A DNA stretch of 64,000 nt from Actinomycetota bacterium (GTDB taxonomy: Bacteria > Actinomycetota > CADDZG01 > JAHWKV01 > JAOPZY01): contig DASTWV010000026.1 in assembly GCA_035765775.1 (NCBI GenBank), positions 1 to 64,000 on the forward strand. Direction: 5' to 3'. Below, in pieces: positions 26,788 to 43,587 of the stretch. The position numbers and the translations under genes were made by a program. Positions within the stretch are counted from its first letter, which is position 1. Each line of letters starts with the position of its first letter. The notes below the pieces were generated by a model, which ran no database searches, was not told the origin of the DNA, and saw only the letters and a list, made by a program, of their open reading frames with translations.

Positions 26788-28920
26788 CTACGAGGCGGAC
26801 TTCGGCGTCGATCGCTTGGCTGCCCGCGGCTTGGCTGCCGTCTGGGCCTTGGGCTTCGTGGAGGCGGCCTTGGGCTTCGCGGAGGCGGCCTTGGGCTTAG
26901 CGGCCACTGGCTTCGCTGCGGGCTTGGCCGCCGACTGGGCGCGCGGGGCAGGCTGGGCCGCAGGCTTCCGGCTCCGGGTCGATTTGGCAGCCGGCTTGGC
27001 CGCCGAAGATGTGGCCACCGGCTTCGCTGCCGGCTTCGTGGCGCGCCCGGGCGGGCTCGAGCTCTTCGTCGCTGCCTTGGGCTTCGTTGCAGCCCGAGGC
27101 TTGGAGGCCGACGTCGCTCCCCGCTTGGGTTTGGCGGCCGCCGATGCAGCAGGCTTGGACGCCGCCTTGGGCTTCGCTGCCACCTTGGGCTTCGCTGCCA
27201 CCTTGGGCTTCGCTGTTGCTGCAGTTTTCGACGTGGCCCTTCGGGTGGGCTTGGGCCCTGAGGTGACCTTCGGACTCGCCGCGGGCGCGGGGGCTGCAGC
27301 GGCCTTCGACCTGGGAGCGGACTTTTGCTGGCGCGCGGCAGAAGTCGCCGCCCCCGTCCGGGCGGCGGCCTTGGGCGCTCGCGGAGCCGCGGTTGGTGTT
27401 GCCTTAGACGTTGGCTTTGCCTTCGCTCTCGCTTTCGCCGTTCGCTTGGGCTGCTCCGGAGCGGGCTCGGGCTTTATGAGGTCCGGGGTAGGGCGGGGCG
27501 CCGCGGCGGCCGCCCGCTTGGCGGACCGCCCGGGGGCGCGGGCGGGCTTGTCGGCTGAGGCCGACGCGGGTTCGGCGGCCGGGTGGGCGGACGACCCGGC
27601 ACGACTCCCGAGGACGCCGGGCATCCGCCGGCGCGGTCCTGGTGGCGGAGCCTCGGCCGGTTCGGGGACCACGGTCTCGATCTCGACCACGAGCTGGCCG
27701 TCCACCAGCTCGACGGTCTCGACGAGGATCTCGCCGTCCTCCATCTCCACCGCCTCGACCCCGAGGACCTCTACCTCGGGCTCGGCCACCACCTCGTCCA
27801 CTTCCACCACCAATTCGCCGTCCACCAATTCGACGGTCTCAACAACGATCTCGCCGCCCTCGAGTTCCACCGCCTCCACCGCCAGGATTTCGACCTCCGG
27901 CTCGGTCACCGCCGAGGGTGGATCGGTGGCACCCAGGACACTCGGCATGCGGCGCCGGGGGCCGCGGCCGGGGGGCTCCGGCGGCTCGTCGTCGTCGTCT
28001 TCCGCCACCGTCACCGACACCTCGTCGATTTCCACCACCAACTGGCCGTCCACCAGTTCGACGGTCTCGACCACCACGTCGCCGTCATCAAGCTCCACGG
28101 CTTCCACGCTCAGCACCTCGATCTGGGGCTCGGCCGGGTCGGAGGCACCGGTTCCGCCGGCATCGCCTCCGCCGAGCACGCTGGGCATGCGCCGCCGGGG
28201 CGCTCGCCGGGGAGGCTCGGGCTCCGTTGGCTCTTCGGCGGCCTCCAGCACCACGGCGCCGGTCACGACCCCGACCGGGGTGATGTCCGCCAGCGAGACG
28301 CCGGCGTATAGGTCCACCGGTTCCGGGCCAGGTGCCGCGGCAGCCTCAGGCCGCGGGTCAGACGCGGGTAGGGACGCGGGTTCGGGGCCGCCGAATCCCA
28401 GGACGCTGGCCATCCGGCGCCGGCGCCCGGAGGCCTCAGACTGCGGCGCGGCTGCCGGTGCGCTGGCAGCAGGGGTCTCCGGCTCGGGTGCGGGTTCCTT
28501 GGATCCGAGCGAGCTGGCGCCGCGCCGGCGGCGAGCGGGGGCGGGTGGTGCCGGCTCGGGTTCGCTGGCAGCCGCGGCCCCAGCCTTGGCCCCGCCCAGG
28601 ACGCTGGGCATGGTGTGGCGGCTGGCGGAGACTGGTTCGGGAGCAGGCCGGGAGGGAGTCGGCGGGGCTGCCTTCTCCTGCGGGCTCATGCCACCGAGGA
28701 TGGCGCGCTGGATGATGACACTGATCACAGGCTGGGCTATGCGGAGGGCCGACGAAGCCACCTTGCGCACCTGCTCGTTCTGCGCCGCCTTGGCCACAAG
28801 GGCCTGCACCTCGGGCGACTGTGCCGCCTTGGCGACCACTCTTTGGGCGGCCTGCAGCCCCTCGCCCGACGCTCCAGCTTTGCCGGTGATCCGGTTCACC
28901 ACATCGGCGAACGACGCCAT
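26788..28920 (-). CDS. 710-aa multivalent repeat protein: helical N-domain, SVLG motifs, acidic repeats, H1-like tail
   Basis: Unrecognised protein with clear modular design. Residues 1-78: Ala-rich helices ending in a hydrophobic stretch (IAQPVISVIIQRAILGG). Residues 100-440: Pro/Glu-rich linker with six copies of a basic motif (HTMPSVLGG 102, RGASSLGS 133, RMASVLGF 169, RMPSVLGG 244, RMPSVLGA 324, RMPGVLGS 432). Between them lie three strand-like acidic repeats near 267-298, 343-374 and 383-414 (e.g. ETVELVDGQLVVEI). Residues about 450-710: Lys/Ala/Pro-rich, histone H1-like tail that should bind nucleic acid or polyanion. Strong GGAGG start. Upstream is a 33-aa peptide gene. The N-domain resembles the 93-aa protein at 40502-40783. 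Probably a scaffold; partner unknown. Confidence 0.85.
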   Translation of the reverse strand: MASFADVVNRITGKAGASGEGLQAAQRVVAKAAQSPEVQALVAKAAQNEQVRKVASSALRIAQPVISVIIQRAILGGMSPQEKAAPPTPSRPAPEPVSASRHTMPSVLGGAKAGAAAASEPEPAPPAPARRRRGASSLGSKEPAPEPETPAASAPAAAPQSEASGRRRRMASVLGFGGPEPASLPASDPRPEAAAAPGPEPVDLYAGVSLADITPVGVVTGAVVLEAAEEPTEPEPPRRAPRRRMPSVLGGGDAGGTGASDPAEPQIEVLSVEAVELDDGDVVVETVELVDGQLVVEIDEVSVTVAEDDDDEPPEPPGRGPRRRMPSVLGATDPPSAVTEPEVEILAVEAVELEGGEIVVETVELVDGELVVEVDEVVAEPEVEVLGVEAVEMEDGEILVETVELVDGQLVVEIETVVPEPAEAPPPGPRRRMPGVLGSRAGSSAHPAAEPASASADKPARAPGRSAKRAAAAAPRPTPDLIKPEPAPEQPKRTAKARAKAKPTSKATPTAAPRAPKAAARTGAATSAARQQKSAPRSKAAAAPAPAASPKVTSGPKPTRRATSKTAATAKPKVAAKPKVAAKPKAASKPAASAAAKPKRGATSASKPRAATKPKAATKSSSPPGRATKPAAKPVATSSAAKPAAKSTRSRKPAAQPAPRAQSAAKPAAKPVAAKPKAASAKPKAASTKPKAQTAAKPRAAKRSTPKSAS

Positions 28921-29040: not shown

Positions 29041-29142
29041 CTACATGTCCCGCAACTGCTTGTAGCGCTGGAAGTCGGGAACCGACTGCATCACCAGCAT
29101 CGCGACCAGCAGCAACAGAGCTCCTCCAACGACACCTTTCAT
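29041..29142 (-). CDS. 33-aa membrane peptide (copy 1; DUF6893-like)
   Basis: One hydrophobic helix (GALLLLVAMLVMQ) followed by SVPDFQRYKQLRDM. It shares 13 of 33 residues and exact length with the peptide at 40321-40422, including the S-x-PD-x-x-RY-x-x-L-x-x-M ending. I associate this type with actinobacterial DUF6893 small proteins. GGAGG six nt before ATG. It lies 120 bp upstream of the 710-aa repeat protein on the same strand, the same order as in the second copy of the module. Confidence 0.7.
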   Translation of the reverse strand: MKGVVGGALLLLVAMLVMQSVPDFQRYKQLRDM

Positions 29143-29450: not shown

Positions 29451-29732
29451 ATGGCGACCCGTAGCGGCGACGTTCCTTCCGGGCGTGTATCCCTGCCCGT
29501 CATCGGCCCGCCCCCTCCCCGCCCGGTGGTGCCCGAGTGCTACGGCGACGTCTGCATCACCTGCTCGGACGAGGCGCTCCCCGTCACCATCGTCGAGCTG
29601 CTGGCCGACGAGCTCGCCCGGGTGGACACCGGCCAGAGCGTCGAGGTGGTCAGCGTGGCCCTGGTGGACGCCGGCGTGGGCGACGTGATCCTGGTCCACG
29701 CCAAAGAAGCAATCGCCGTCATCAGGGAGTAA
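29451..29732 (+). CDS. HypC/HupF-like hydrogenase chaperone with displaced cysteine
   Basis: 93 aa. The core CITCSDEALPVTIVELL, then VDTGQSVEVVSVALVDAGVG and DVILVHAKEAIAVI, is the HypC OB-like fold with the extended CxTCSD form known from actinobacteria. Canonical HypC uses the Cys directly after Met1; here that Cys is about residue 36 behind a Pro-rich extension (VIGPPPPRPVVPECYGDVC). ATG 29451 has GGGAGG 7 nt before it. It probably assists hydrogenase cofactor assembly beside the canonical hypC at 40936. Convergent with the response regulator gene. Confidence 0.75.
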   Translation: MATRSGDVPSGRVSLPVIGPPPPRPVVPECYGDVCITCSDEALPVTIVELLADELARVDTGQSVEVVSVALVDAGVGDVILVHAKEAIAVIRE

Positions 29733-29811: not shown

Positions 29812-30465
29812 TCAGGGGTTGAGCGGGCCCAACTCCCGGCGCAGGGCGGCTCGCACCATCTCTGCCTGCGAGTGCAGGCCGAGCTTCTTCATCAGGTTCG
29901 AGCGGTGGCTCTCCACCGTGCGGACGCTGATGAACAGACGCTCGGCGATCTGGGCGCTGGTGTAGCCCTGCCCCACCAACGTCAGCACCTCGCGTTCCCG
30001 CACCGTGAGGGCGGCATCGTCACTGGGCGCCTGGCCCTTGGCCCGGTGGGCATAGGCATCCACCGCGTGCTGGGAGAGCGGTGGGCTGAGGTAGCGCCTC
30101 CCCTGGCACACCTCGCGGATGCCGCGGATCAGCTCGCCGGCCTCCGACTGCTTCAGGACGTAGGCGCCGGCCCCGTTCTGCAAGGCGTCGAGGACATAGG
30201 CCTCATTGGCATACATGGACAGTACGACCACCCGGGTGTCGGCCCCCCGCCGGGTGAGCTCGCGGAGGGCGCTCAGGCCCCCGATCCCGGGCATCACGAG
30301 GTCCAGCACCAAGACGTCGGGCCGGAGCCTCTCCACCATCGGGCACACCTCGGAGCTGTTGCCGGTCTGGCCCACCACCTGGAAGTCGCCCTCGGCCTCG
30401 AGCATGGCGCGCAGGCCCTCCCGGACAACCGGGTGATCCTCGGCCAGGAGCACCGAGAGGCTCAT
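29812..30465 (-). CDS. NarL/FixJ-family response regulator
   Basis: 217 aa. The receiver domain has LLAEDHPVVREGL, phospho-acceptor Asp in VLVLDLVMPGIGG (about 55) and the signalling Lys in AYVLKQSEAG. The C-terminal LuxR-type helix-turn-helix is LTVREREVLTLVGQGYTSAQ, then RTVESHRSNLMKKLGLHSQ. The ATG overlaps the kinase stop (ATGA), so the pair is coupled. It lies divergent to the hydrogenase structural genes and is the best candidate for their regulator. Confidence 0.93.
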   Translation of the reverse strand: MSLSVLLAEDHPVVREGLRAMLEAEGDFQVVGQTGNSSEVCPMVERLRPDVLVLDLVMPGIGGLSALRELTRRGADTRVVVLSMYANEAYVLDALQNGAGAYVLKQSEAGELIRGIREVCQGRRYLSPPLSQHAVDAYAHRAKGQAPSDDAALTVREREVLTLVGQGYTSAQIAERLFISVRTVESHRSNLMKKLGLHSQAEMVRAALRRELGPLNP

Positions 30466-32231
30466 CGGATGGCCCCCACGGTCTCCAGGGCCTCCATCGC
30501 CGCCCGCGCCCCCGAGGCCGACGCAGCCGGGTCGGGCGCGGCCAGCAGGCCACCCTGGACAGGCAGGCTGGCGACGACCCGCGTGCCCCGCCCGGGAGAC
30601 GACTCGATTCGGAACTGGCCGCCCAGCAGCCGGGCCCGCTCCTGCATCCCACGCAGACCGCTGGTGGTGTGCGGGCGGACCGCGCCCGGCTCGAAGCCGA
30701 TGCCGGAGTCCCGGACCTCGATGTACATCTCCTCGTCCTCGAACAGGCAGCGGACGTGCGCCGTCCCGCTGGCGGCGTGGCGCACCACGTTGTTCAACGC
30801 CTCCTGCACGATGCGGTAGGCCGCAGTCTCCACCTCCCAGGAGAAGCGCCGGTCCAGGCCATGGTGGTCCAGCGCCACGTGCAGGCCGGTCTGGGTGGAG
30901 AGCACGTGCTCGGTGAGCCACAGGAGTGCGGGGAGCAGCCCGAGGTCGTCCAGCATGGCGGGGCGTAGCGACAGCGAGAAGTCGTGGACCCGGGACACCA
31001 GTTCCCCCATCCCGGCCCGCGCTTCCCCGAGGGCGGCCCGGAGATCGGCCGGTGCGCGGTGCTCCAGGCTGGCGAGGCTCAGGGCCAGACCGGTCAAGGC
31101 CTGGCCGATCTCGTCGTGCAGCTCCCGGGCAATGCGCCGGCGTTCGGCCTCCTGGGCGGCGACCACCACCCGGGAATGGGCGTCGAGCTCCTCGCGCAGC
31201 TCCCGCTCCCGGTCGCCGGCCCGGCGCAGGGCGTCCTGCACCTTCTTGGCGACGATGGCCTCGGCCAGGACGTTGGCGATGGCCTGCAGGAAATGGACGT
31301 CGTCCCGGCTGAAGCGCCGGTGCCGGGCGGTGTGGGTGCACAGCACCCCCCACGGCCGGCCCTTGCCGCGGACGATGACGCTCATCCCACTGGCTACCGA
31401 CCGCTTGACCCACGGGGGCCCGGCGAAGCGGGTCTCGGAGTCGAAGTCCTCCACCACCACCGGCATGTCGGACACCAGGGTGTAGGCGGCCTGGGATGTG
31501 AGCCGGAGGTCGATGCCCGGCGACCCGGACTGCTCCTCCCAGCCGACGCCGGCCCGCACGGTGAAGCTCTTGCCGTCCCCCGCGAGCTCCAGGACGCGGG
31601 CGAACTCGACCTCCAGCACCCGGGTGATCACGTTGACCGCGGCATCCATGAGGTCGGGCAGCTCGGCGCCCGCCAGGGCCTGCTGGCCGAGGTCGGCCAC
31701 CGCGGCCTGCTGGAGGGTCCGGGTCTTCAGCTGGCGCTCCGCCCGCTCCTGCTCGGAGCGGTCGGAGAAGATCCCGATGCTCGCCAGCCGGCCAGCGACC
31801 TCGATGGTGCCGGCCGCCGCCTCGACGTAGACCCGCTGGCCGCCCTTATGGACCAGCGTCCACTCGAACTCGTGCATGAGCTGGAACTCGAACGGCGGCA
31901 CCTCGATGCCAGCGCCTTTGTGATCACCGTTCAGGGTGAGATCGCCGCCCCGCGCAACCGGTGGGGGCACTGCGGCGGCCATGCCGGCCAGATGCGCCGG
32001 GCGCCGCACGCCCAGCTCCTCCGGGGTGTAGCCAATCATCTGGCTGAACAGCGGGCTGACGTAGATCGGGATCTCGTCGTCCCAGACGACGACGGCGACG
32101 CCCAGGTCGCTTAGGACTTTGGGGAGGTTCCCGAGCCAGGAAGGGGTGGCGTCGCCAATCACAGCGGGAAGCTCCGGTGATTGATCCCGCGCGGGCAGGC
32201 GGGCTTCCCGATCGATCACCGCCCGTGCCAT
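30462..32231 (-). CDS. PAS-GAF sensor histidine kinase (HisKA_3 type)
   Basis: About 589 aa from ATG 32231; an upstream in-frame Met at 32417 gives an Arg-rich, unlikely extension. Order: PAS domain (VAVVVWDDEIPIYVSPLFSQ, IGYTPEELG), GAF domain (LMDAAVNVITRVLEVEFARV to AIANVLAEAIVAKKVQ), dimerisation box with phospho-His RRIARELHDEIGQALTGLAL, and ATPase domain (EALNNVVRHA, DSGIGF, TTSGLRGMQERARLLGG). No transmembrane helix, so it senses a cytoplasmic signal, perhaps redox, oxygen or hydrogen-related. A heme ligand in the GAF is not evident. Coupled to the response regulator. Confidence 0.9.
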   Translation of the reverse strand: MARAVIDREARLPARDQSPELPAVIGDATPSWLGNLPKVLSDLGVAVVVWDDEIPIYVSPLFSQMIGYTPEELGVRRPAHLAGMAAAVPPPVARGGDLTLNGDHKGAGIEVPPFEFQLMHEFEWTLVHKGGQRVYVEAAAGTIEVAGRLASIGIFSDRSEQERAERQLKTRTLQQAAVADLGQQALAGAELPDLMDAAVNVITRVLEVEFARVLELAGDGKSFTVRAGVGWEEQSGSPGIDLRLTSQAAYTLVSDMPVVVEDFDSETRFAGPPWVKRSVASGMSVIVRGKGRPWGVLCTHTARHRRFSRDDVHFLQAIANVLAEAIVAKKVQDALRRAGDRERELREELDAHSRVVVAAQEAERRRIARELHDEIGQALTGLALSLASLEHRAPADLRAALGEARAGMGELVSRVHDFSLSLRPAMLDDLGLLPALLWLTEHVLSTQTGLHVALDHHGLDRRFSWEVETAAYRIVQEALNNVVRHAASGTAHVRCLFEDEEMYIEVRDSGIGFEPGAVRPHTTSGLRGMQERARLLGGQFRIESSPGRGTRVVASLPVQGGLLAAPDPAASASGARAAMEALETVGAIR

Positions 32232-32714
32232 CGCTTCGTTCGCCCTTCCGCCCGCGCCAGGCCTTCCCGTCGCTCCGGGCGCTGCCCTCTTCGTACTCCT
32301 CGCGTGGCTCCCCGTCAAGCGATGCTTGGCTGAGTTGGCGAGATGCACCGAGACGCATGACCAGCGACGGTTTCCTCTCCTTTGCGAGCGGGAATGGACC
32401 AACCGACCTGAACGCACTGTAAACGGTCGTGTTCCCTGCGTAGAGATACGGAGACAGATTCAGTAAAGACACGGATAGATCCGGCCACGGGTGGGTTAGA
32501 GAATCATCGCGTCGCCCTTTCGCGGGGTGCTTTGCCGTATAGCTCCGAACGGCAACCGCGGCCGGGTGCGGGGTGCATCGCTTGCGAGCCGACGGGGAGG
32601 GGGACAGAGTCAGGAAGGCGGGGTTTGTCGAGGAGTTGATCCTCAGATCGCTTCAAGCTCGATCGGGGGCCTGATCCCCACCAGGGGGGTGGCTCCCAGA
32701 AGGAGGTGAAGTGG
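32232..32714. other. Divergent control region between sensor kinase and hydrogenase operon
   Basis: No gene supported over 483 bp; presumably promoters for both directions. Visible items are a small inverted repeat CCACC/GGTGG (32678-32692) in the leader and a perfect anti-16S sequence AAGGAGGTGA (32700-32709) that fixes the hydrogenase small-subunit start. Confidence 0.5.
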
Positions 32715-33794
32715 ATGGCAGCAGCGGCAAGGCGTGGCAGGGCAGCCCCACCGGCTGAGGCAGAAGCGCCCGTCGTACACATCCTCTGGATGAACGGGGG
32801 GCTCTCCTGCGACGGTGACTCGGTGGCGCTCACCGCAGCGACACAGCCGAGCATCGAGGAGATCGTTCTAGGTGCACTCCCCGGGCTTCCCCAGCTGGCA
32901 GTGCACTGGCCGCTGATCGATTTCGAGTGTGGACCCCAGGAAGGGGCCGACACATTCATCGAGTGGTTCTACAAGGCGGAGCGTGGCGAGATCGACCCCT
33001 TCGTGCTCGTGGTGGAGGGCTCCATCCCCAACGAGGCCATCAAGTCCGAGGGCTACTGGTGCGGGTTCGGCAACAACTTCGAGACCGGCCAGCCCATGAC
33101 CACCAGCGAATGGCTGGACCGCCTGGCTCCCAAGGCCCTCGCCATCGTGGCGGTCGGCACCTGCGCCACCTACGGCGGCATGCACGCCATGGCCGGCAAC
33201 CCCACGGGCGCCATGGGCGTCCCCGACTACCTGGGCTGGGGCTGGCGCTCCAAGGCGGGCCTTCCCGTCGTCTGCATCCCGGGTTGCCCGGCGCACGGCG
33301 ACAACATGTCCGAAACATTCCTGTACCTGCTGTACATGGCCACCGGCCAGGCCCCCATCATCCCGCTGGACGAAGCCCTTCGTCCCCGCTGGCTGTTCGG
33401 CGCCACCGTGCACGAGGGCTGCGACCGTGCCGGCTACTACGAGCAGGGTGACTTCGCCACCGAGTACGGCTCACCGAAGTGCCTGGTGAAACTGGGCTGC
33501 TGGGGCCCGGTGGTCAAGTGCAACGTCCCGAAGCGGGGCTGGATCAACGGCGTGGGCGGCTGCCCGAACGTCGGCGGCATCTGCATCGGGTGCACCATGC
33601 CGGGCTTCCCCGACAAGTTCATGCCGTTCATGGACGAGCCCCCGGGCGCCAAGGTGTCCACCGCGGCCAGTGGGGCCTACGGCGCAGTCATCCGTGGGCT
33701 GCGCAGCTTCACCATGAAGACCACCGACACCGAGCCGTCGTGGCGCAAGCCGGGTCCCGACCTGCTCACCGGCGCAACCAAGACCTGGTCGTAG
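32715..33794 (+). CDS. hhyS: NiFe hydrogenase small subunit, actinobacterial (group 1h-like) type
   Basis: 359 aa; electron-transfer subunit carrying three Fe-S clusters. The proximal-cluster region reads WMNGGLSCDGDSVALTAA: Asp35 stands where most hydrogenases have the second Cys, as known for oxygen-tolerant actinobacterial-type enzymes with 3Cys/1Asp ligation. Further ligands: GTCATYGG (Cys150), PGCPAHGD (Cys191), VHEGCDRAG, KCLVKLGCWGP, GGCPNVGGICIGCTMPGFPD. No Tat signal peptide, so it is cytoplasmic. ATG 32715 is chosen for the AAGGAGGTGA site 8 nt upstream. First gene of a long operon. Likely role: oxidation of atmospheric or trace H2. Confidence 0.92.
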   Translation: MAAAARRGRAAPPAEAEAPVVHILWMNGGLSCDGDSVALTAATQPSIEEIVLGALPGLPQLAVHWPLIDFECGPQEGADTFIEWFYKAERGEIDPFVLVVEGSIPNEAIKSEGYWCGFGNNFETGQPMTTSEWLDRLAPKALAIVAVGTCATYGGMHAMAGNPTGAMGVPDYLGWGWRSKAGLPVVCIPGCPAHGDNMSETFLYLLYMATGQAPIIPLDEALRPRWLFGATVHEGCDRAGYYEQGDFATEYGSPKCLVKLGCWGPVVKCNVPKRGWINGVGGCPNVGGICIGCTMPGFPDKFMPFMDEPPGAKVSTAASGAYGAVIRGLRSFTMKTTDTEPSWRKPGPDLLTGATKTWS

Positions 33795-33837: not shown

Positions 33838-35607
33838 ATGGCAAAAGGCGATGTCGTCGAGATGGTGTGGGACCCAGTAACCCGGATCGTGGGGAGCCTG
33901 GGCATCTACACCAAGATCGACTTCTCCCAAGGCAAGGTGCTGGAGTGCTACAGCACTTCATCCATCTTCCGTGGCTACAGCATCTTCATGAAGGGCAAGG
34001 ACCCTCGGGACGCCCACTTCATCACCAGCCGCATCTGCGGCATCTGTGGTGACAACCACTGCGCGGTGTCCTGCTACAACCAGCAGATGGCCTACGGGAT
34101 CCACCCCCCGGCCATGGGCGAGTGGATCGTCAACCTGGGCGAGGCCGCGGAGTACATGTTCGACCACAACATCTTCCAGGAGAACCTGGTGGGTGTGGAC
34201 TACTGCGAGAAGATGGTCGCCGAGACCAACCCCGGCGTCCTGGAGTTGGCCAACAAGACCGAGTCCCCCCACGCCGCCGAGCACGGCTACCGCACCATCG
34301 GCGACATCATGCGGTCCCTGAACCCGCTCTCGGGCGAGTTCTACCGGGAGGCCCTGCACGTCAGCCGGTACACCCGGGAGATGTTCTGCCTCATGGAAGG
34401 GCGCCACGTCCACCCCTCCACCCTGTACCCCGGAGGCGTCGGCACCGTCCCGACCATCCAGCTGTTCATGGACTACCTCACCCGCCTCATGCGCTACCTC
34501 GAGTTCATGAAGAAGGTCGTGCCAATCCACGACGACCTCTTCGACTTCTTCTACGAGGCGATCCCGGGCTACGAGGAAGTCGGCCGGCGGCGCGTGCTGC
34601 TGGGCTGCTGGGGCTCCCTCCAGGACCCGAACGTCTGTGACTTCAAGTACGAGAACATGTCCACCTGGGGCGACGCGTGCTTCGTCACCCCCGGCGTCGT
34701 GGTCGACGGCAAGCTCGTCACCCACGACCTCGTGAAGATCAACCTGGGCCTGCGCATCCTCCTCGGCTCCTCGTACTACGAGGATTGGGAAGGCAAGGAG
34801 GTCTTCGTCAAGAACGACCCCCTGGGCAACCCGGTGGACGTCCGTCACCCGTGGAACCAGCACACCATCCCGAGGCCGCAGAAGCGCGACTTCACCGACA
34901 AGTACAGCTGGACCATGTCGCCCCGCTGGTTCGACGGCAAGGACTACCTCGCCCTCGACACCGGTGGTGGCCCCCTGGCCCGCCTGTGGCCGACCGCCCT
35001 CGCCGGGCTGGTCAACACGCCCTACGTCAAGTCGACCGGGCACAGCATCACCATCGACTTCCCGAAGACCGCGACCAAGGGCCCGGCCCACTTCGAGTGG
35101 GTCATCCCCGAGTGGTCCAACGCCCTCGAGCGCAACCGGGCTCGGACCTACTTCCAGGCCTACTCTGCCGGCCTGGCGCTGTACTTCGTTGAGGAAGCCC
35201 TGAAGGAGCTCCGGGCTGGTCACACCCAGACCTGGACCCCGTTCAAGGTGCCGGACGAGGCCATCTCCTGCGGGTTCACCGAGGCGGTCCGGGGCGTGCT
35301 CTCCCACCACATGGTCATCCGGGGCGGGAAGATCGCCAACTACCACCCGTACCCCCCGACCCCGTGGAACGGCAGCGTCCGTGACATCTACGGGACCCCG
35401 GGACCCTACGAGGACGCGGTGCAGAACACCCCGATCTTCGAGGAGAACGAGCCCGAGAACTTCAAGGGCATCGACATCATGCGGGCCGTCCGTTCCTTCG
35501 ACCCCTGCCTGCCGTGCGGGGTGCACATGTACCTCGGCGGGGGCGCGGGCAAAGGCAAGGTCGTCCGCCGGATGCACTCGCCTACCGTCCTGCCCCTGGA
35601 GCGCTAG
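33838..35607 (+). CDS. hhyL: NiFe hydrogenase large subunit, actinobacterial (group 1h-like) type
   Basis: 589 aa; binds the Ni-Fe(CN)2CO centre. L1 motif SRICGICGDNHC (Cys67, Cys70) and L2 motif FDPCLPCGVHMY (Cys557, Cys560, His563) supply the four Ni-bridging thiols. A 26-residue tail follows His563 and should be removed by the endopeptidase encoded at 39723-40274. The N-terminus WDPVTRIVGSLGIYTKIDF is typical of this subgroup. 43 bp after the small subunit with its own ribosome site. Two hairpins lie behind it. Confidence 0.95.
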   Translation: MAKGDVVEMVWDPVTRIVGSLGIYTKIDFSQGKVLECYSTSSIFRGYSIFMKGKDPRDAHFITSRICGICGDNHCAVSCYNQQMAYGIHPPAMGEWIVNLGEAAEYMFDHNIFQENLVGVDYCEKMVAETNPGVLELANKTESPHAAEHGYRTIGDIMRSLNPLSGEFYREALHVSRYTREMFCLMEGRHVHPSTLYPGGVGTVPTIQLFMDYLTRLMRYLEFMKKVVPIHDDLFDFFYEAIPGYEEVGRRRVLLGCWGSLQDPNVCDFKYENMSTWGDACFVTPGVVVDGKLVTHDLVKINLGLRILLGSSYYEDWEGKEVFVKNDPLGNPVDVRHPWNQHTIPRPQKRDFTDKYSWTMSPRWFDGKDYLALDTGGGPLARLWPTALAGLVNTPYVKSTGHSITIDFPKTATKGPAHFEWVIPEWSNALERNRARTYFQAYSAGLALYFVEEALKELRAGHTQTWTPFKVPDEAISCGFTEAVRGVLSHHMVIRGGKIANYHPYPPTPWNGSVRDIYGTPGPYEDAVQNTPIFEENEPENFKGIDIMRAVRSFDPCLPCGVHMYLGGGAGKGKVVRRMHSPTVLPLER

Positions 35608-35762: not shown

Positions 35763-36698
35763 ATGGCCTCGGGTCAAGGTAACGGTCACAGCAACGTTCG
35801 CCAGGTTGGGGACCGCATCGAAGTGCTGCTGGGCGAGCTCCGCTCGTCGGCGTCGCCCGAGGTCTCTACCAAGGTCGAGGAGGTCGTCGGCCTCCTTGTC
35901 GAGCTCTACGGGGCCGGGCTGGAGCGGATCCTCGAGGTCGTAAACGAGGACCAGGATGTGGCCACCCCGCTGCTGAAGCGCTTCACCGACGACAAGTTCA
36001 TCGAGAGCCTCCTGGTGCTGCACGGCATCCACCCGGTGGACGTCGACACCCGGATCGAAACGGCCCTCGACCAGGCCCGGCCCTACCTCGGGTCGCACGC
36101 CGGCGGCGTCCAGTACCTGGGCGTCGACGAGCAGGGGGTCGCCCACCTGAAGCTCGAAGGAAGCTGCCACGGCTGCCCGTCTTCGACGGTCACGGTGAAG
36201 CTGACGCTCGAGCAAGCCATCGCCGAGGCCGCTCCGGAAGTGCTCCGGGTGGAGGTCGAGGGCGTGGCCGAGGCCCCTACCGGGCCGAGCCAAAATTTGC
36301 TGCAGATCCAGACCCGCCCGGGCGGCCCCGTCGATGCCACCGCCGCCGACGCGGCCAGCGCCTGGCTTCCCATCGACGCCGTCGGGCTGCTGCCCGGCGA
36401 GAAACGGGTGCAGGTGGTGGAGGGCATGGAGGTCTTCATCTGCTCGGCGGTGGGCAACCTCTACGCCTACCGCAACGCGTGCGCCTCGTGCGGCGCGTCG
36501 CTGAAGGACGCCGCCCTGCTGGATGAAGCCTTGCGCTGCTCACGCTGCGGCACGCTCTACAACGTGCGCCTCGCCGGGCGCAGCGTGCACTCCTCAGACA
36601 GCTCGGTGGTCCACCTCGACCCGCTGCCGCTCCTGCAGGACCAGCACGAGTGGAAGGTCGCCATCCCGCCGGGCGCCCGCTCGGTGGTCCGCTCCTGA
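35763..36698 (+). CDS. NifU C-terminal domain fused to Rieske-like/Cys4 domain
   Basis: 311 aa. Residues about 95-170 are a NifU/NfuA-type Fe-S scaffold with CxxC in EGSCHGCPSSTVTVKL (Cys135, Cys138). Residues about 200-305 follow the Rieske fold layout (VEGMEVFICSAVGNLYAYRN). But the usual C-x-H and C-x2-H ligand pairs are CASC (240, 243) and CSRC (259, 262), giving four Cys. It may therefore hold a rubredoxin-type iron, a zinc or an all-Cys 2Fe-2S cluster. Within hydrogenase operons of this type such a protein is expected to deliver or accept electrons or Fe-S clusters. Confidence 0.85.
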   Translation: MASGQGNGHSNVRQVGDRIEVLLGELRSSASPEVSTKVEEVVGLLVELYGAGLERILEVVNEDQDVATPLLKRFTDDKFIESLLVLHGIHPVDVDTRIETALDQARPYLGSHAGGVQYLGVDEQGVAHLKLEGSCHGCPSSTVTVKLTLEQAIAEAAPEVLRVEVEGVAEAPTGPSQNLLQIQTRPGGPVDATAADAASAWLPIDAVGLLPGEKRVQVVEGMEVFICSAVGNLYAYRNACASCGASLKDAALLDEALRCSRCGTLYNVRLAGRSVHSSDSSVVHLDPLPLLQDQHEWKVAIPPGARSVVRS

Positions 36699-36715
36699 GG
36701 GCCCCGGCGGAGAAC

Positions 36716-37501
36716 ATGGGCCAGAGCAACGGCAACGCCGGTCCGGCACCGGCTGCCCCCAGCGGGCTGCGCCGGTTCGTCAAGGGCCTCCCTCCGGCGG
36801 GCGCCTCCGAGGAGCTGCTGTCCCGGTTCGAGGAGTCCCGCCGCCCGCGCCCCAAGCCGGGAGAGGCATGCGAGATGTGCGCCGCCCCGATCCCCGAGGA
36901 GCACGGCCACGTCGTCCACATCGAGAACCGGGAGTTGATGTGCGTCTGCCGCCCGTGCTACCTGCTCTTCGCCAAGGACGGCTCGGGCCAGGGCAAGTAC
37001 CGCCAGGTCCCCGACCGGTACCTGTTCGATCCGTACTTCGTACTCGACGACGCCCAGTGGGAGGACATCCAGATCCCGGTGTCGATGGCCTTCTTCTTCA
37101 ACAACTCCACGCTCGACCGCTTCGTGGCCTTCTACCCCAGCCCCGCCGGGGCGACCGAGTCGCTGCTCGACCTGGAAGCCTGGGGCAAGGTCATGGAGGC
37201 CAACTCCTCCTTCGAAGGGATCCTGCCCGACGTGGAGGCGCTGCTGCTGCGCAAGGAGGACGACACCTTCGCCGGCTACCTCGTCCCGATCGACAAGGCC
37301 TACGAGCTGACCGCCATCGTGCGCATGCACTGGAAGGGCTTCAGCGGCGGCGAGGAGGTCTGGGACGCCATGAACCGATTCTTCGAGGATCTGCGCGGCC
37401 GGAGCGCGGTCGTCGGCTGGGGGCCACGCGGGCCACGGCCGGCCGCGGCGGCGGATCCGGCACCGCAGGACGCGGCCCCCGACCACTCTGAGGGCGGGTG
37501 A
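36716..37501 (+). CDS. DUF5947-like hydrogenase-cluster protein
   Basis: 261 aa. CEMC (52, 55) and CVCRPC (76, 78, 81) form a probable zinc or Fe-S site beside HGHVVHIENREL. A beta-rich body follows (YFVLDDAQWEDIQIPVSMAF, VEALLLRKED). I associate this pattern with DUF5947 proteins found beside actinobacterial hydrogenases; function unknown. The tail after residue 235 is Ala/Pro-rich. ATG 36716 is 17 nt after the previous stop; the next gene starts 1 nt after its stop. Confidence 0.75.
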   Translation: MGQSNGNAGPAPAAPSGLRRFVKGLPPAGASEELLSRFEESRRPRPKPGEACEMCAAPIPEEHGHVVHIENRELMCVCRPCYLLFAKDGSGQGKYRQVPDRYLFDPYFVLDDAQWEDIQIPVSMAFFFNNSTLDRFVAFYPSPAGATESLLDLEAWGKVMEANSSFEGILPDVEALLLRKEDDTFAGYLVPIDKAYELTAIVRMHWKGFSGGEEVWDAMNRFFEDLRGRSAVVGWGPRGPRPAAAADPAPQDAAPDHSEGG

Positions 37502-37502
37502 G

Positions 37503-38189
37503 ATGAGTGAACTCGTCTTCGACCTCCTGGGTGTGGAACCAGAGCCATACGCCGCGTCCCCGACGCTCAACTTCGGCCTGCGCATCTCGGAGACCACCGG
37601 CATACGGATCCATGCCATCCTCCTGCGCATCCAGATCCGCATCGAGCCGAAGCGGCGCCGCTACTCGCCCGCCGAGGCGGAGCGGCTGCTCGACCTCTTC
37701 GGCGAGACCAAACGCTGGGGCGACACGGTGAAGCCGATGCAGTTCGCCTTCGCCGACGCTGCCATCCCCGGTTTTGACGGGTCGATCGAAGTGGACGTCG
37801 CGGTCCCCTGCACCTACGACTTCGAGGTGGCCAGCGCCAAGTACTTCCACGCCCTCGACGAGGGCGAGATCCCCCTGCTGATGCTGTTCTCCGGGACGGT
37901 GTTCACCAAGGGTGAAGGTGGGTTCGCCGTCGAGCAGGTGCCCTGGCACAAAGAGATCAGCTTCGGGGTGCCGGTGGCCACCTGGGACAAGCTGATGGAC
38001 CTCTACTTCCCCGGACAGGCCTGGGTGCGCATGCAACGCGAGACCCTGGACGGCCTGCAGCGCTTCAAATCCCACCGGGGCCTCACCGGCTGGGACGAGA
38101 CCCTGACGGTCCTGCTGGAGGCGGCTGGGGACAGCGGGGCGGGAGCGCCAGGGAAAGCGGAGCCGGAGAGGCCGGTCGTCCATGAGTGA
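37503..38189 (+). CDS. DUF6084-like hydrogenase-cluster protein
   Basis: 228 aa, beta-rich and soluble. Characteristic segments: PTLNFGLRISETTGIRIHAI, RRRYSPAEAERLLDLFGE, VPCTYDFEVASAKYFHAL and WDKLMDLYFPGQAWVRMQRE. I recall this type as DUF6084, known only from hydrogenase neighbourhoods. It overlaps the next gene by 8 nt, and the four genes from 36716 to 40274 are tightly coupled, so they probably act as a complex or in sequence during enzyme assembly. Confidence 0.72.
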   Translation: MSELVFDLLGVEPEPYAASPTLNFGLRISETTGIRIHAILLRIQIRIEPKRRRYSPAEAERLLDLFGETKRWGDTVKPMQFAFADAAIPGFDGSIEVDVAVPCTYDFEVASAKYFHALDEGEIPLLMLFSGTVFTKGEGGFAVEQVPWHKEISFGVPVATWDKLMDLYFPGQAWVRMQRETLDGLQRFKSHRGLTGWDETLTVLLEAAGDSGAGAPGKAEPERPVVHE

Positions 38190-39726
38190 CGACGGGGAAG
38201 GCCCCGACATCTTCGCCCTGGCGAAGAAGATGGCCGACGCCATCCTCTATGAGGGCTACGTGCTGTATCCCTACCGGGCCTCGGCAGCCAAGAACCAGGT
38301 CCGCTGGCAGTTCGGCGTCCTGGCACCGAATGCCTGGAGCCAGTCCGGCGGGCCCGAGCCGTGGGAGCAGCAGGTCCAGCTCCTGGCCGAGCCGGAGGAC
38401 GGTGCCGTCCTGCAGCTGCGCCTCCGGTTCCTCCAGGTGCAGGCCAAGCGGGTTGAGGAGCGCCGGGGGGACGGCAGCTTCTCGCCGGTGGAGACCCTGA
38501 CGGTGGGCGGGACCCAGCACATCACCTGGGAAGAGGCCGTCGAGCACCAGCTGGACTACCGCTTCCCCATCGCCGACCTGGCCGCCGACGAGGCCACCAT
38601 CGCACTGAAGATCGCCGGGGGCGAGGACGCACCCGAGTCGGTCAGCGATGCCGAGGGTGGCGTGGCTGGGCGCATCCTGCGCCGTCGCCAGCAGCTCCAA
38701 GGCCTGCTGCGGGTGTCGGCCGAACCGCTGCCCGGGCCCTTCGGCGCCTACCGGCTGAGGCTGCGGATCGAGAACCTCACCCCCTACGACGGTTCGCCCG
38801 ACGACCGGAGGGCGGCGATGAGCTACTCGTTCATTGCCTGCCACACCCTGTGGGCGCTCACCCCCGCCCGCCACGGCCGCTTCATCTCCCTGCTGGAGCC
38901 CCCGGCGTGGGCGAAGGCGGAGGCCCAGGCGTGCGAGAACCTGCACGCCTTCCCGGTGCTGATCGGCGACCGGCAGGCCCGCGACGTCATGTTCGCCTCG
39001 CCCATCATCCTGTACGACTGGCCCCAGATCGCCCCGGAGAGCCCGGGCGACCTGTTCGACGGCACCGAGGTGGACGAGTTGCTGAGCCTCAACATCATGA
39101 CGATGACCGACGAGGAGAAGAAGGAGGCCCGGGCCACCGACCCCCGCGCCAAGGCGATCATCGACCGGGTGGACGCCATGCCGCAGGAGCTGCTCGACCG
39201 CCTGCACGGCGCGGTGCGCTACCTGCGCGACGTGACCGGCGAGCTGGACGACATCCCCGAGTTCGGCACCGGTGCCGACGGGCTCCCGGTGTACGGCGAG
39301 GAGCGCCCCATGTCTGGGCGCTCCGCCCCCGGCTCCGCGGTCTTCGGACGCGAGTTCGACGACCGGCGGCCCGCCGGCTACCAGAACGCCACGGCGCCGG
39401 CCCCCGATCCGGCCCAGCCCTGGTGGGAGCAGGAGGCCAACTTCAAGCCCGACACCGACACCGCCGTCATCAACGGCGTACCGGTGGCGGCCGGGGGCAA
39501 GGTGATCCTGCGCCCGGGGACCCGGCGCGCCGACGCCCAGGACATGTTCCTCGCCGGCAAGGTGGCCGACGTCCAGGCGGTGTTCTACGACCTGGAGAAC
39601 AAGCAGTTCCTGGCGGTGACCCTGGAAGAGGACCCCAACGCCGACCTGCAGGTGGAGAATGGGCGCTTCCTGTACTTCGCCGCCGACGAAGTCGAGCCGG
39701 TCGTGTCCGGGGAAGTCCCGGCATGA
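38182..39726 (+). CDS. 514-aa hydrogenase-associated protein of unknown function
   Basis: Large soluble protein, start overlapping the previous gene and stop overlapping the protease start (ATGA). The first 290 residues are well structured (AILYEGYVLYPYRASAAKNQ, RWQFGVLAPNAWS, YSFIACHTLWAL, DVMFASPIILYDWPQIAPES). Residues about 300-350 are helical (NIMTMTDEEKKEARATD). The C-terminus (GGKVILRPGTRRADAQDMFL, KVADVQAVFYDLE) is a small beta-fold that could bind metal or the maturing subunit. The same gene order occurs in other actinobacterial hydrogenase loci from memory; no biochemical role is known to me. Confidence 0.72.
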   Translation: MSDDGEGPDIFALAKKMADAILYEGYVLYPYRASAAKNQVRWQFGVLAPNAWSQSGGPEPWEQQVQLLAEPEDGAVLQLRLRFLQVQAKRVEERRGDGSFSPVETLTVGGTQHITWEEAVEHQLDYRFPIADLAADEATIALKIAGGEDAPESVSDAEGGVAGRILRRRQQLQGLLRVSAEPLPGPFGAYRLRLRIENLTPYDGSPDDRRAAMSYSFIACHTLWALTPARHGRFISLLEPPAWAKAEAQACENLHAFPVLIGDRQARDVMFASPIILYDWPQIAPESPGDLFDGTEVDELLSLNIMTMTDEEKKEARATDPRAKAIIDRVDAMPQELLDRLHGAVRYLRDVTGELDDIPEFGTGADGLPVYGEERPMSGRSAPGSAVFGREFDDRRPAGYQNATAPAPDPAQPWWEQEANFKPDTDTAVINGVPVAAGGKVILRPGTRRADAQDMFLAGKVADVQAVFYDLENKQFLAVTLEEDPNADLQVENGRFLYFAADEVEPVVSGEVPA

Positions 39727-40274
39727 CCGACGCCCCGCGGATCCTGGTCGCCGGCGTCGGCAACATTTTCCTCTCCGACGACGCCTTCGGCTGCGAGGTC
39801 ATCCGCCGGCTGGGCGAGCACCCGCTCCCCGAGGGGGTCACCGTGGCCGACTTCGGCATCAAGGGGGTGCACCTTGCCTACGAGCTGCTGGAGGGCTACG
39901 ACGCCGTGGTCATCGTCGACGCCGCCCCGTGCGGCGGCCAGCCGGGCGACCTCTACCTGATCGAGCCGCAGCTCGACGAGGTCGAGGAATCGCCGCTCGT
40001 ACAGGCGGCCGCCGAGGGCGAGTCCGCCCTGGTGGATGCCCACGGGCTGGAGCCCGACGCCATCTTCGGCATGCTGAAGGCCCTCGGCGGGAGCGTGCGC
40101 CGGGCACTGGTCGTCGGCTGCGAGCCGGAGACCGTCGAGGACGGCATGGGGCTCACCCCGGTGGTGGAGGCGGCGGTGGAGCCCACCGTTGCCCGGCTGA
40201 TTGACATCGTGGGGCGCCTGCACGTCGAGCAGGACGTGGCGCTCACCACGCTCGCCCGGAAGAACCCTTCCTGA
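39723..40274 (+). CDS. Hydrogenase maturation endopeptidase (HyaD/HybD-type, M52)
   Basis: 183 aa. VAGVGNIFLSDDAFGCEVIRRL carries the family Glu/Asp ligands, ADFGIKGVHLAYELLEGYDAVVIVDA the central Asp, and VDAHGLEP the His that together bind the nickel in the precursor. It removes the C-terminal tail of the large subunit after NiFe insertion, here predicted after His563 of HhyL. ATG overlaps the preceding stop. Confidence 0.92.
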   Translation: MTDAPRILVAGVGNIFLSDDAFGCEVIRRLGEHPLPEGVTVADFGIKGVHLAYELLEGYDAVVIVDAAPCGGQPGDLYLIEPQLDEVEESPLVQAAAEGESALVDAHGLEPDAIFGMLKALGGSVRRALVVGCEPETVEDGMGLTPVVEAAVEPTVARLIDIVGRLHVEQDVALTTLARKNPS

Positions 40275-40320: not shown

Positions 40321-40422
40321 ATGTTCAAGCTTGTGAAGGCCGCTGTGCTCGCCGGGGCTGCCGCCCTGCTCGTCACGTCGCTCCCGGACATCAAGCGCTA
40401 CCTGGAACTCAAGAACATGTAA
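40321..40422 (+). CDS. 33-aa membrane peptide (copy 2; DUF6893-like)
   Basis: Hydrophobic helix (AAVLAGAAALLVT) then SLPDIKRYLELKNM, preceded by GAGAGGAGG. Same length and ending as the peptide at 29041-29142. It sits inside the hydrogenase operon, 46 bp after the endopeptidase and 79 bp before the 93-aa protein. Possibly a membrane anchor or adaptor (inference). Confidence 0.72.
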   Translation: MFKLVKAAVLAGAAALLVTSLPDIKRYLELKNM

Positions 40423-40501
40423 CGAAGCTGCAGGTGCAGCCCTCGTCAGACAAAGAGCTGGGCAGACCACGGACCGAGACCGAACAGGAGGGGTAGAAGC
40501 T

Positions 40502-40783
40502 ATGGAAGCGCTCGTCGGCTTCGCAATCGGCTACTGGACCGGAACCCGCGACGGGCGGGAGGGCCTGCAGAAGGCCCTGAACGCCCTGGACGCCATCACC
40601 AAGTCCGAGCAGTTCAAGTCGCTGGTGAATTCAGGCCTCTCGGTCGGCGGCAACCTCCTGGCGAAGGGCATGCAGAACGCCAACGCCGGCGGCGTGGCCT
40701 CCACCGTCAGCCGGGGCGTCGTCGGCGTCGTCGCCCAGCGGGCGGGCAAGGCCCTGGTCGGCGGGCTGCGCCGGGCAGCGTAG
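40502..40783 (+). CDS. 93-aa YtxH-like helical protein, partner of the 33-aa peptide
   Basis: The N-terminus MEALVGFAIGYWTGTRDGRE resembles the short hydrophobic GYxxGxRxGRE start of actinobacterial YtxH-like proteins. Then come amphipathic helices (GLQKALNALDAITKSEQFKS) and a Gly/Ala/Val-rich end. The segment GLQ-x-A...S-E-x...LV aligns with residues 21-43 of the 710-aa repeat protein, which likewise follows a 33-aa peptide gene. It may associate with membranes; placed between protease and hypC it probably serves the hydrogenase. Confidence 0.68.
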   Translation: MEALVGFAIGYWTGTRDGREGLQKALNALDAITKSEQFKSLVNSGLSVGGNLLAKGMQNANAGGVASTVSRGVVGVVAQRAGKALVGGLRRAA

Positions 40784-40935: not shown

Positions 40936-41205
40936 ATGTGCCTTGGGATTCCCGGTGAGGTGATCGAGCTCCTGGACCGCAACGACCTGGCGAAAGTGGA
41001 TGTCAGCGGCGTGCGGCGGAGCATCAACATCGGTCTCCTCGAGAACGAGAACGTGCAGCCCGGCGACTGGGTGCTGATCCACGTCGGCTTCGCTCTGTCC
41101 AAAATCGACGAGGACGAGGCGGCCGCCGCGCTCGCCTTCCTCGAGGGCGTTGGCCAGTCCTACACCGACGAGCTCGACGCCCTGGCCCAATCCAGCATCG
41201 ATTAG
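40936..41205 (+). CDS. hypC: Hydrogenase maturation chaperone HypC
   Basis: 89 aa starting MCLGIPGEVIELLD, with the essential Cys2. The OB-fold signature is VDVSGVRRSINIGLLENENVQ, then GDWVLIHVGFALSKIDEDEA. It carries the Fe(CN)2CO moiety from HypD and delivers it to the large subunit. Ribosome site GAGGAGGGGG. A 30-codon upstream frame (40871-40963) with its own good ribosome site overlaps its first codons. hypD and hypE follow directly. Confidence 0.96.
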   Translation: MCLGIPGEVIELLDRNDLAKVDVSGVRRSINIGLLENENVQPGDWVLIHVGFALSKIDEDEAAAALAFLEGVGQSYTDELDALAQSSID

Positions 41206-41224: not shown

Positions 41225-42352
41225 GTGAGATTTGTTGACGAGTTCCGTGACGCAGAGAAGGCCCAGGCCCTCTCGGCCCAGATCGCCAGCCTGTGCGAGC
41301 CGGGCCGCCACTACAGCTTCATGGAGGTATGCGGGGGCCACACGCACACCATCTACAAGCACGGCCTCGAGGACTACCTCCCCGAGAGCATCTCGCTGGT
41401 CCACGGCCCGGGCTGCCCGGTGTGCGTGATCCCCATGGGGCGCCTGGACGACGCCATCTACATCGCCGAGCAGCCCGACGTGATCATGACCTCCTTTGGC
41501 GACATGATGCGGGTGCCGGGTGGCAAGGGCTCCTTCTTCGACGCCAAGGCCAAGGGGGCCGACATCCGGATGGTGTACTCGCCCCTGGACTCGTTGAAGA
41601 TCGCCCGGGACAACCCGAACAAGAAGGTGGTCTTCATGGCCATCGGCTTCGAGACCACGGCGCCCTCCACCGCCATGACGGTGCTGCGGGCGAAGGCGGA
41701 TGGCCTGGAGAATTTCTCGATCTTCTGCAACCACGTCACGATCATCCCGGCGATCAAGGCGATCCTCGACTCGCCCGACATGCGCCTCGACGGCTTCCTC
41801 GGGCCGGGCCACGTCTCGACCGTGATCGGCTGCAAGCCCTACGAGTTCATTGCCCGGGACCACAACAAGCCCCTGGTGTGCGCCGGCTTCGAGCCGCTCG
41901 ACATCCTCGCCTCGGTCTACCAGCTGATGGTCCAGGTCAAAGAGGGCCGCTCCGTGGTGGAGAACCAGTACACCCGGGTGGTCCCCTGGGAAGGCAACCT
42001 CAAGGCCCTGCAGGTCATCAACGAGGTCATGGAGCTGCGCCCCTACTTCGAATGGCGGGGCCTGGGCTTCATCTCGCACTCGGCGCTCAAGGTGCGGGAC
42101 GCCTACAAGCAGTTCGATGCCGAAGAGATCTTCCACATCCCGGGTATCCGGGTGGCTGACCCCAAGGCCTGCCAGTGCGGCGAGGTCCTGAAGGGCGTCA
42201 TCAAGCCCTGGGAATGCAAGGTCTTCGGGACCGCCTGCACCCCGGAGACGCCCATCGGCACCTGCATGGTGTCCCCTGAGGGCGCCTGTGCCGCCTACTA
42301 CAACTTCGGGCGGTTCACCCGGGAGCGGGTCAAGGAGGCGACACGGAGGTGA
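41225..42352 (+). CDS. hypD: Hydrogenase formation protein HypD
   Basis: 375 aa. Signature sequences: MEVCGGHTHTIYKHG (catalytic Cys), HGPGCPVCVIP (CxxC), GFETTAPSTA and the C-terminal 4Fe-4S set PKACQCGEVLKG...WECKVFGTACTPETPIGTCMVS. With HypC it assembles Fe(CN)2CO. GTG start after AAGGGGGTGA. The GTGA overlap with hypE couples them. Confidence 0.97.
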   Translation: MRFVDEFRDAEKAQALSAQIASLCEPGRHYSFMEVCGGHTHTIYKHGLEDYLPESISLVHGPGCPVCVIPMGRLDDAIYIAEQPDVIMTSFGDMMRVPGGKGSFFDAKAKGADIRMVYSPLDSLKIARDNPNKKVVFMAIGFETTAPSTAMTVLRAKADGLENFSIFCNHVTIIPAIKAILDSPDMRLDGFLGPGHVSTVIGCKPYEFIARDHNKPLVCAGFEPLDILASVYQLMVQVKEGRSVVENQYTRVVPWEGNLKALQVINEVMELRPYFEWRGLGFISHSALKVRDAYKQFDAEEIFHIPGIRVADPKACQCGEVLKGVIKPWECKVFGTACTPETPIGTCMVSPEGACAAYYNFGRFTRERVKEATRR

Positions 42353-43587
42353 CGCCGGACGCGCCGAGCGGCGCATCCGGGCTGTCCGCCCAGGACATGC
42401 TCCCGGGCGGCGGCGAGGGCTCCGAGCGCTCGGCGGACTGGGCCGAGGCAGCGGTCGCCGAGGCGGCTGCCCCCGAGGACCACGAGCTGGCGCAGTACGA
42501 GCTGGGGGCCAAGACGCTCACCCAGGAGGAGCAGGTGCTCCAGCGGATCGACCGCGCCCGCCGCCGGAAGGCCCGCCTGAAGGAGGAGCGCGTCACCCTG
42601 GCGCACGGCGCCGGCGGGAAGGCCACGCACACCCTGATCGACGCCCTCTTCCTGGAGGCGTTCCGCAACCCCATCCTGGAGGCGATGGAGGACCAGGCGA
42701 CGCTGACGGTCAATGGCACCCGCCTGGCCTTCACCACCGACTCCTTCGTGGTCCACCCGCTGTTCTTCCCGGGCGGCAACATCGGCGACCTGGCGGTGAA
42801 CGGCACCGTCAACGACCTGGCGGTGTCGGGGGCGCGGCCCCTGGCGCTGTCGGCCGGCTTCATCCTGGAGGAGGGCTTCCCGGTGGCCGACCTCCAGCTC
42901 ATCGCCTCCTCGATGGCGGCCGCGGCCGCCGCCGCCGGGGTGCAGATCGTCACCGGGGACACCAAGGTGGTGCAGAAGGGCCTGGCCGACGGGTGCTACA
43001 TCAACACCTCCGGCATCGGGGTCATCGAGCGGGACGTCTCCCTGGGCGCCGCCAACGTCCGGCCGGGCGACGCGGTGCTGGTCTCCGGCCCGATCGGCGA
43101 CCACGGCATCACCATCATGCTGGCCCGGGGCGAGCTGGACATCGAGTCCGACATCACCTCGGACACCGCCGCGCTCCACGACCTCATCAACACGCTGCTC
43201 GATGCCACTTCCGGCGTGCGCTGCATGCGGGATGCCACCCGGGGTGGCGTCGCCACCATCTTGAACGAGGTGGCCCGGGCGTCCAACGTGGCGGTGGTGG
43301 TGGACGAGCGGGCGGTGCCCACCCGGGCCGAGGTCCGGGGGGCGAGCGAGATCCTGGGCATCGACCCCCTCTACGTGGCCTGCGAGGGCCGTCTGGTGAT
43401 CATCGTGGACGGGGCCGAGGCGGACGCCGCCCTGGCGGCGCTGCGCTCCCACCCCCTGGGCGAGGGCTCGGCCATCATCGGCACCGTGAAGGACGACCCT
43501 CCCACGCTCGTGCTGCTCAAGACCGAGTTCGGCGGTACCCGGATCGTCGACATGCTCATCGGCGACCCCCTGCCTCGCATCTGCTGA
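42349..43587 (+). CDS. hypE: Hydrogenase expression/formation protein HypE
   Basis: 412 aa AIR-synthase-like enzyme that dehydrates the C-terminal thiocarbamate to thiocyanate. It ends in the required PRIC (C-terminal Cys). The core starts at about residue 78 (ERVTLAHGAGGKATHTLI) and shows GGNIGDLAVNGTVNDLAVSG, VTGDTKVV and RCMRDATRGGVAT. The first about 77 residues are an extra acidic, partly helical extension not found in typical HypE (about 335-350 aa). Its carbamoyl donor HypF is not encoded in this window. Confidence 0.95.
   Translation: MTPDAPSGASGLSAQDMLPGGGEGSERSADWAEAAVAEAAAPEDHELAQYELGAKTLTQEEQVLQRIDRARRRKARLKEERVTLAHGAGGKATHTLIDALFLEAFRNPILEAMEDQATLTVNGTRLAFTTDSFVVHPLFFPGGNIGDLAVNGTVNDLAVSGARPLALSAGFILEEGFPVADLQLIASSMAAAAAAAGVQIVTGDTKVVQKGLADGCYINTSGIGVIERDVSLGAANVRPGDAVLVSGPIGDHGITIMLARGELDIESDITSDTAALHDLINTLLDATSGVRCMRDATRGGVATILNEVARASNVAVVVDERAVPTRAEVRGASEILGIDPLYVACEGRLVIIVDGAEADAALAALRSHPLGEGSAIIGTVKDDPPTLVLLKTEFGGTRIVDMLIGDPLPRIC

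Follow-up and report, generated by a model that had tools for sequence, protein, structure and literature searches.

DUF6893, a predicted single-pass membrane micropeptide of group 1h [NiFe]-hydrogenase clusters

Two 33-aa peptides encoded in the hydrogenase cluster of an Actinomycetota bacterium are real and represent two copies of one family, DUF6893. Judged from sequence comparisons, the best explanation is that the family is a single-pass membrane micropeptide, its span being predicted, dedicated to the group 1h (Hhy) [NiFe]-hydrogenase. The link to the hydrogenase had been claimed in a first-pass annotation of this DNA; it held up in other genomes, where DUF6893 was found overwhelmingly in group 1h clusters and not mostly away from hydrogenases.

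Two DUF6893 copies in one Hhy cluster

The window (the whole 64,000-nucleotide stretch that was analysed) contains a complete group 1h cluster, with hhySL and the genes for the NifU-type protein, DUF5947, DUF6084, P514 and the maturation protease in the expected order (Table 1). On the forward strand the series continues with peptide copy a, HEL93, hypC, hypD and hypE, so that copy a lies 3' of the protease gene, between it and hypC. The other end of the cluster is formed by a histidine kinase and a response regulator (-), HypC2 (+) and copy b (-). Only 43 bp separate hhyS from hhyL. The sole PDB match of the window HhyL at E <= 1e-60 was 5AA5, the solved actinobacterial-type (group 1h) hydrogenase of C. 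necator. Scans for Rfam families and for promoters and terminators gave no result. A second [NiFe]-hydrogenase large-subunit gene is present in the same genome (G000, contig C20, about 7909-9048; L003, L004), with no DUF6893 nearby.

Table 1. Features of the Hhy cluster in the window
Feature	Position	Strand	Basis
710-aa low-complexity protein after copy b	26788..28920	-	Repeat and tail kept in the L041 positional counterpart
DUF6893 micropeptide copy b, 33 aa, MKGVVGGALLLLVAMLVMQSVPDFQRYKQLRDM	29041..29142	-	Pfam PF21833, E 3.5e-7
HypC2, second HypC-like gene, divergent from copy b	29451..29732	+	Translation; tblastn homologues in many Hhy clusters
Response regulator	29812..30465	-	Sequence; homologue in L041
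GAF-domain histidine kinase	30462..32417	-	Pfam
HhyS, hydrogenase small subunit, no obvious Tat signal	32706..33794	+	Pfam; sequence
HhyL, hydrogenase large subunit, group 1h	33838..35607	+	Pfam; PDB match 5AA5
NifU/Rieske-like protein (HhyE type)	35763..36698	+	Pfam NifU; sequence
DUF5947	36650..37501	+	Pfam
DUF6084	37503..38189	+	Pfam
P514, 514-aa conserved protein of Hhy clusters	38182..39726	+	No Pfam match; conserved in complete clusters compared
Hydrogenase maturation protease	39723..40274	+	Homologues so annotated in L153, L154, L156
DUF6893 micropeptide copy a, 33 aa, MFKLVKAAVLAGAAALLVTSLPDIKRYLELKNM	40321..40422	+	Pfam PF21833, E 7.2e-13
HEL93, 93-aa protein, sporadic peptide follower	40502..40783	+	Homologues in few loci; no Pfam match
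HypC	40936..41205	+	Pfam
HypD	41225..42352	+	Pfam
HypE	42349..43587	+	Pfam AIRS domains

The description of the two peptides in the first-pass annotation was borne out: both frames encode 33 residues, 13 of which are identical (39%), both end in the common S-x-PD-x-x-RY-x-x-L-x-x-M pattern, both are preceded by a GAGAGGAGG-type ribosome site, and one lies within the hydrogenase cluster while the other diverges from a HypC-like gene. Both copies independently matched Pfam DUF6893 (PF21833) over the whole 32-position model, copy a with 48.8 bits and copy b with 30.6 bits against a curated cut-off of 24.6 bits, and they are the sole matches above that cut-off in the 3.6-Mb genome. When the profile was rebuilt excluding both peptides and their closest relatives, it gave them 49 and 25 bits, and none of 4000 composition-shuffled sequences scored above 12.

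A relative of the same family (G178) carries both copies in the same two contexts, and the layout of copy b beside HypC2 and the response regulator is repeated there (L041). Compared with their counterparts in the nearest relative, copy a showed dN 0.22 and dS 1.15, and copy b dN 0.14 and dS 1.08. The earlier statement that the peptide has no described function agrees with the literature searched, though a Pfam entry does exist: that literature, whose coverage was incomplete, yielded neither a function of DUF6893 nor a link to hydrogenases, nor did it name an HhyTM- or HhyM-like hydrogenase protein. No credible relatives of DUF6893 were found among solved structures.

The predicted structure of P514 had a mean pLDDT of 67.6. 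Its comparison with the PDB gave no whole-protein match, and the hits top-ranked by E-value had TM-scores near 0.1, which are meaningless. In the model, residues ~427-506 form a small barrel similar to PetP of cytochrome b6f (target-based TM-score 0.77, with E only 0.03); the modelled C-terminal barrel is more loosely like nitrile hydratase beta.

Linkage of DUF6893 to group 1h clusters

DUF6893 matches above the cut-off numbered 29 in 296 genomes of the phylum, and 27 of them were located within hydrogenase clusters. The two others were a third copy in G178, on a short 4.3-kb contig (L039) with no recognisable hydrogenase genes, and a match that falls within a frame of 795 aa (G214). When genomes were sorted by the cluster marker DUF6084, a match was present in 20 of the 26 that have the marker and in 4 of the 270 that lack it (20/4/6/266 genomes with both, DUF6893 only, DUF6084 only and neither; Fisher p = 4e-22). 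One of the six DUF6084 genomes without an above-cut-off match (G253) has a recognisable sub-threshold copy in its cluster.

A second survey covered 80 hhyL loci from named actinobacteria (Streptomyces, Kitasatospora, Kribbella, Amycolatopsis, Streptosporangium, Nonomuraea and others). The peptide is encoded in 68 of them, in each case on the same strand as hhyL and 2.0-4.3 kb beyond it. At least six of the 12 peptide-less loci are contigs cut short (L088, L104, L105, L115, L126 and L148), and the genome of L079 has a DUF6893 copy on another contig, beside other Hhy genes. Five complete actinobacterial clusters lack the peptide (two from Kutzneria, two from Kribbella and one from Amycolatopsis iheyensis), with no above-cut-off match anywhere in those genomes; another Kribbella (L120) does have it. 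DUF6893 is also absent from a deeper hydrogenase clade with HhyL about 63% identical and the same gene order (L065, L066, L068, L070), a clade that perhaps represents a different subgroup, for instance 1m. No substitute small membrane peptide common to the DUF6893-less clusters was found.

The commonest neighbour of the peptide is the maturation protease gene; in three rearranged clusters (L075, L084, L174) the peptide directly follows DUF6084. Some clusters (L056, L061) have, between the peptide and the protease gene, a hydrophilic protein of 87-92 aa that starts with MPN(K/R)RGT. In L047 (G150), most of the region from hhyS through P514 is missing, and hypB, DUF6893, the protease and hyp genes are retained.

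Copies were also located on plasmids and beyond Actinomycetota. On megaplasmid pHG1 of C. necator H16, an interval without annotation that separates hypF from the maturation protease gene encodes MKGFLKYLVLPALVVALLANIKDIRRYIRIRSM (66753-66854), the sole DUF6893 match on the 452-kb plasmid (E 2.4e-9). In Methylocystis parvus, MGLFEIILGLLILALIAFNFRDIVRYIKITMM, likewise unannotated, lies between the protease and hypC; it was missed by the profile searches and recognised by its position and motif. Further copies occur on a Mycobacterium intracellulare plasmid and a Streptomyces fungicidicus plasmid, the plasmid copies being unannotated according to the gene tables used, which are incomplete. On the M. 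intracellulare plasmid a second copy (L165:9332-9523), extended by 24 residues at its C-terminus, neighbours genes of the Calvin cycle, among them phosphoribulokinase. Scanning IMG/VR for HhyL gave no match.

Peptide anatomy and candidate roles

The last twelve residues follow the consensus (P)D-x-(K/R)-R-Y-x-x-(I/M)-R-x-Met. Among the 98 peptides whose profile match reaches the C-terminus, a selection that favours Met-ending sequences, the last residue is Met in 98, position -7 is Tyr in 98, -8 is Arg in 97, -11 is Asp or Glu in 95 and -12 is Pro in 88. The exceptions to the terminal Met that were seen are two copies, one of them the second Mycobacterium copy, whose frames run 23-24 residues past it. 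With dN/dS at 0.22 in the last 12 codons, against 0.76 in the 20 codons before them, which cover the helix, the C-terminal twelve residues are under strong purifying selection, and the preceding predicted membrane helix is free to vary. Hydropathy supports one membrane span in 95% of the peptides. The net charge is +2.9 in the last 13 residues and +1.3 in the first 6; since the tail is more positive than the head, by the positive-inside rule it should be cytoplasmic, in the compartment of HhyS/HhyL. These two subunits have no signal and no membrane segment, and in 14 clusters no convincing membrane segment was detected in HhyS, HhyL, HhyE, DUF5947, DUF6084, P514 or the protease.

According to the literature, Hyd-1h has no transmembrane helix and no signal peptide, yet it is membrane-associated through an unknown partner; its affinity is lower after isolation, high affinity going with membrane association (PMC7174314). 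The hhy operon of M. smegmatis is without the usual cytochrome b (PMC6883350). We consider the chances about even that DUF6893 serves as a membrane tether or accessory subunit of the Hhy complex. The N-terminal ~20 residues would span the membrane and place the strongly basic C-terminal segment (D-x-K/R-R-Y-x-x-I/M-R-x-Met-COOH) on the cytoplasmic side, where it would dock a soluble Hhy component (HhyS/HhyL with HhyE, DUF5947, DUF6084 and P514) and so hold an enzyme that has neither signal nor membrane segment at the membrane, near the quinone pool. The membrane recruitment proposed in the first-pass annotation is compatible with all results, the peptide being the sole predicted membrane-spanning product common to the clusters compared; the proposal is drawn from anatomy and neighbourhood. 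Against a tether stand the five complete actinobacterial clusters and the deeper clade without the peptide, and C. necator, which has the peptide and yet yielded its enzyme, on isolation, as a soluble protein of low affinity. A more far-reaching version is put forward tentatively, as somewhat doubtful: DUF6893 might be the missing membrane subunit of group 1h, its near-invariant tail docking the enzyme at the quinone pool and contributing, in more than one phylum, to the oxidation of atmospheric H2 with high affinity; it would then have been overlooked because its gene is usually unannotated.

With the protease as its usual neighbour, the peptide would also fit a role in maturation, in which it would anchor the protease or a chaperone complex of Hyp proteins at the membrane while nickel is inserted and the large subunit is processed, and would not form part of the finished enzyme. 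The positions of copy b, its L041 counterpart and L046 by HypC or HypC2 agree with such an assembly factor, as does the retention of peptide and protease in L047, where most structural genes are gone. However, the peptide directly follows DUF6084 in the three rearranged clusters, in one of which (L075) the protease gene is found upstream, on the other strand, and no DUF6893 lies near the second [NiFe]-hydrogenase (contig C20) in the genome of the window; we regard a maturation factor as rather unlikely. Still less probable is a role in regulation or respiration, in which the micropeptide would act on some other membrane complex while hydrogen metabolism is active. The second copy beside phosphoribulokinase in the Mycobacterium plasmid and the isolated third copy of G178 point that way, but such copies are rare and nearly all DUF6893 is found in hydrogenase clusters.

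The first-pass annotation had also joined each peptide to a following helical protein in a duplicated two-gene scaffold module. HEL93 homologues do directly follow the peptide outside the window, though only in L040 (G178), L044, L075 (Kibdelosporangium), L080 (a MAG) and L152; most loci have no such follower. Nor is the 710-aa follower of copy b demonstrably related to the 93-aa protein: BLASTP scored no more than 25.8 bits, in segments rich in Ala (E 2e-4 for one pair), a six-member profile of the 93-aa family matched the 710-aa protein with a probability of 5%, and the GLQ segment said to align the two is absent from the positional counterpart of the 710-aa protein in the nearest relative (498 aa, L041). 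The scarcity of followers and the low profile probability leave the partner half of the claim unsupported. As a general rule the module is mostly refuted and looks very improbable, and it could still hold within the HEL93-bearing lineages; the best reading of these comparisons is that the helical partner is probably an optional, lineage-specific extra. Neither protein had a convincing match in Pfam or NCBIfam, and HEL93 has no membrane segment by hydropathy. In the 710-aa protein, five repeats of the type (R)RRM-P-S-V-L-G are set between acidic VETVELVDG repeats, and the tail is rich in Lys, Ala and Pro; the protein has the look of a disordered scaffold that carries a docking motif several times over; in its G178 counterpart (L041:2378-3875), M-P-S-V-L-G-type repeats and a basic tail are alike and the N-terminus is not.

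Comparison with known membrane elements and significance

Dedicated membrane elements have been described for other high-affinity groups: HucM in group 2a (PMC10017518), and HylTM1-5 in group 1l and two small membrane proteins in group 1m (PMC9561532). For group 1h, DUF6893 is the candidate that suggests itself. The role proposed here for DUF6893 is the same as that of HucM in Huc, linking a soluble high-affinity hydrogenase to membrane and quinone. HucM, however, is a protein of about 188 aa that assembles as a tetramer into a coiled-coil scaffold and stalk, whereas DUF6893 is one predicted membrane helix of 33 aa with a basic tail; at that size it is not a HucM-type stalk (a coiled-coil tetramer of about 190 aa). 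HylTM1-5 and the 1m proteins are, like DUF6893, short predicted transmembrane proteins of high-affinity hydrogenase clusters. By their published descriptions they are set apart, the HylTM genes lying between the small and large subunit genes, where DUF6893 lies downstream near P514 and the protease, and the 1m proteins having 82-92 aa in contrast to the about 33 aa and near-invariant C-terminus of DUF6893. The cytochrome b subunit of group 1d hydrogenases is likewise the membrane anchor of a respiratory hydrogenase, but the window peptides contain no His and have no room for haem binding, a comparison made through PMC6883350 and general knowledge and not by sequence.

In the literature, a large share of the uptake of atmospheric H2 by soils is credited to group 1h hydrogenases, and their membrane attachment and electron transfer to quinone are an open question (PMC7174314, PMC6883350). 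A gene of ~100 bases makes the question of the membrane link directly testable: it is nearly always in the cluster, encodes what is so far the one product of the cluster with a clear predicted membrane span, and is present without annotation in the model strain C. necator H16. DUF6893 gains a functional context, and Hhy that has been purified or heterologously expressed may be without its DUF6893 component. For soil bacteria living on the hydrogen of air, the peptide is a testable candidate for the link between the soluble enzyme and the membrane.
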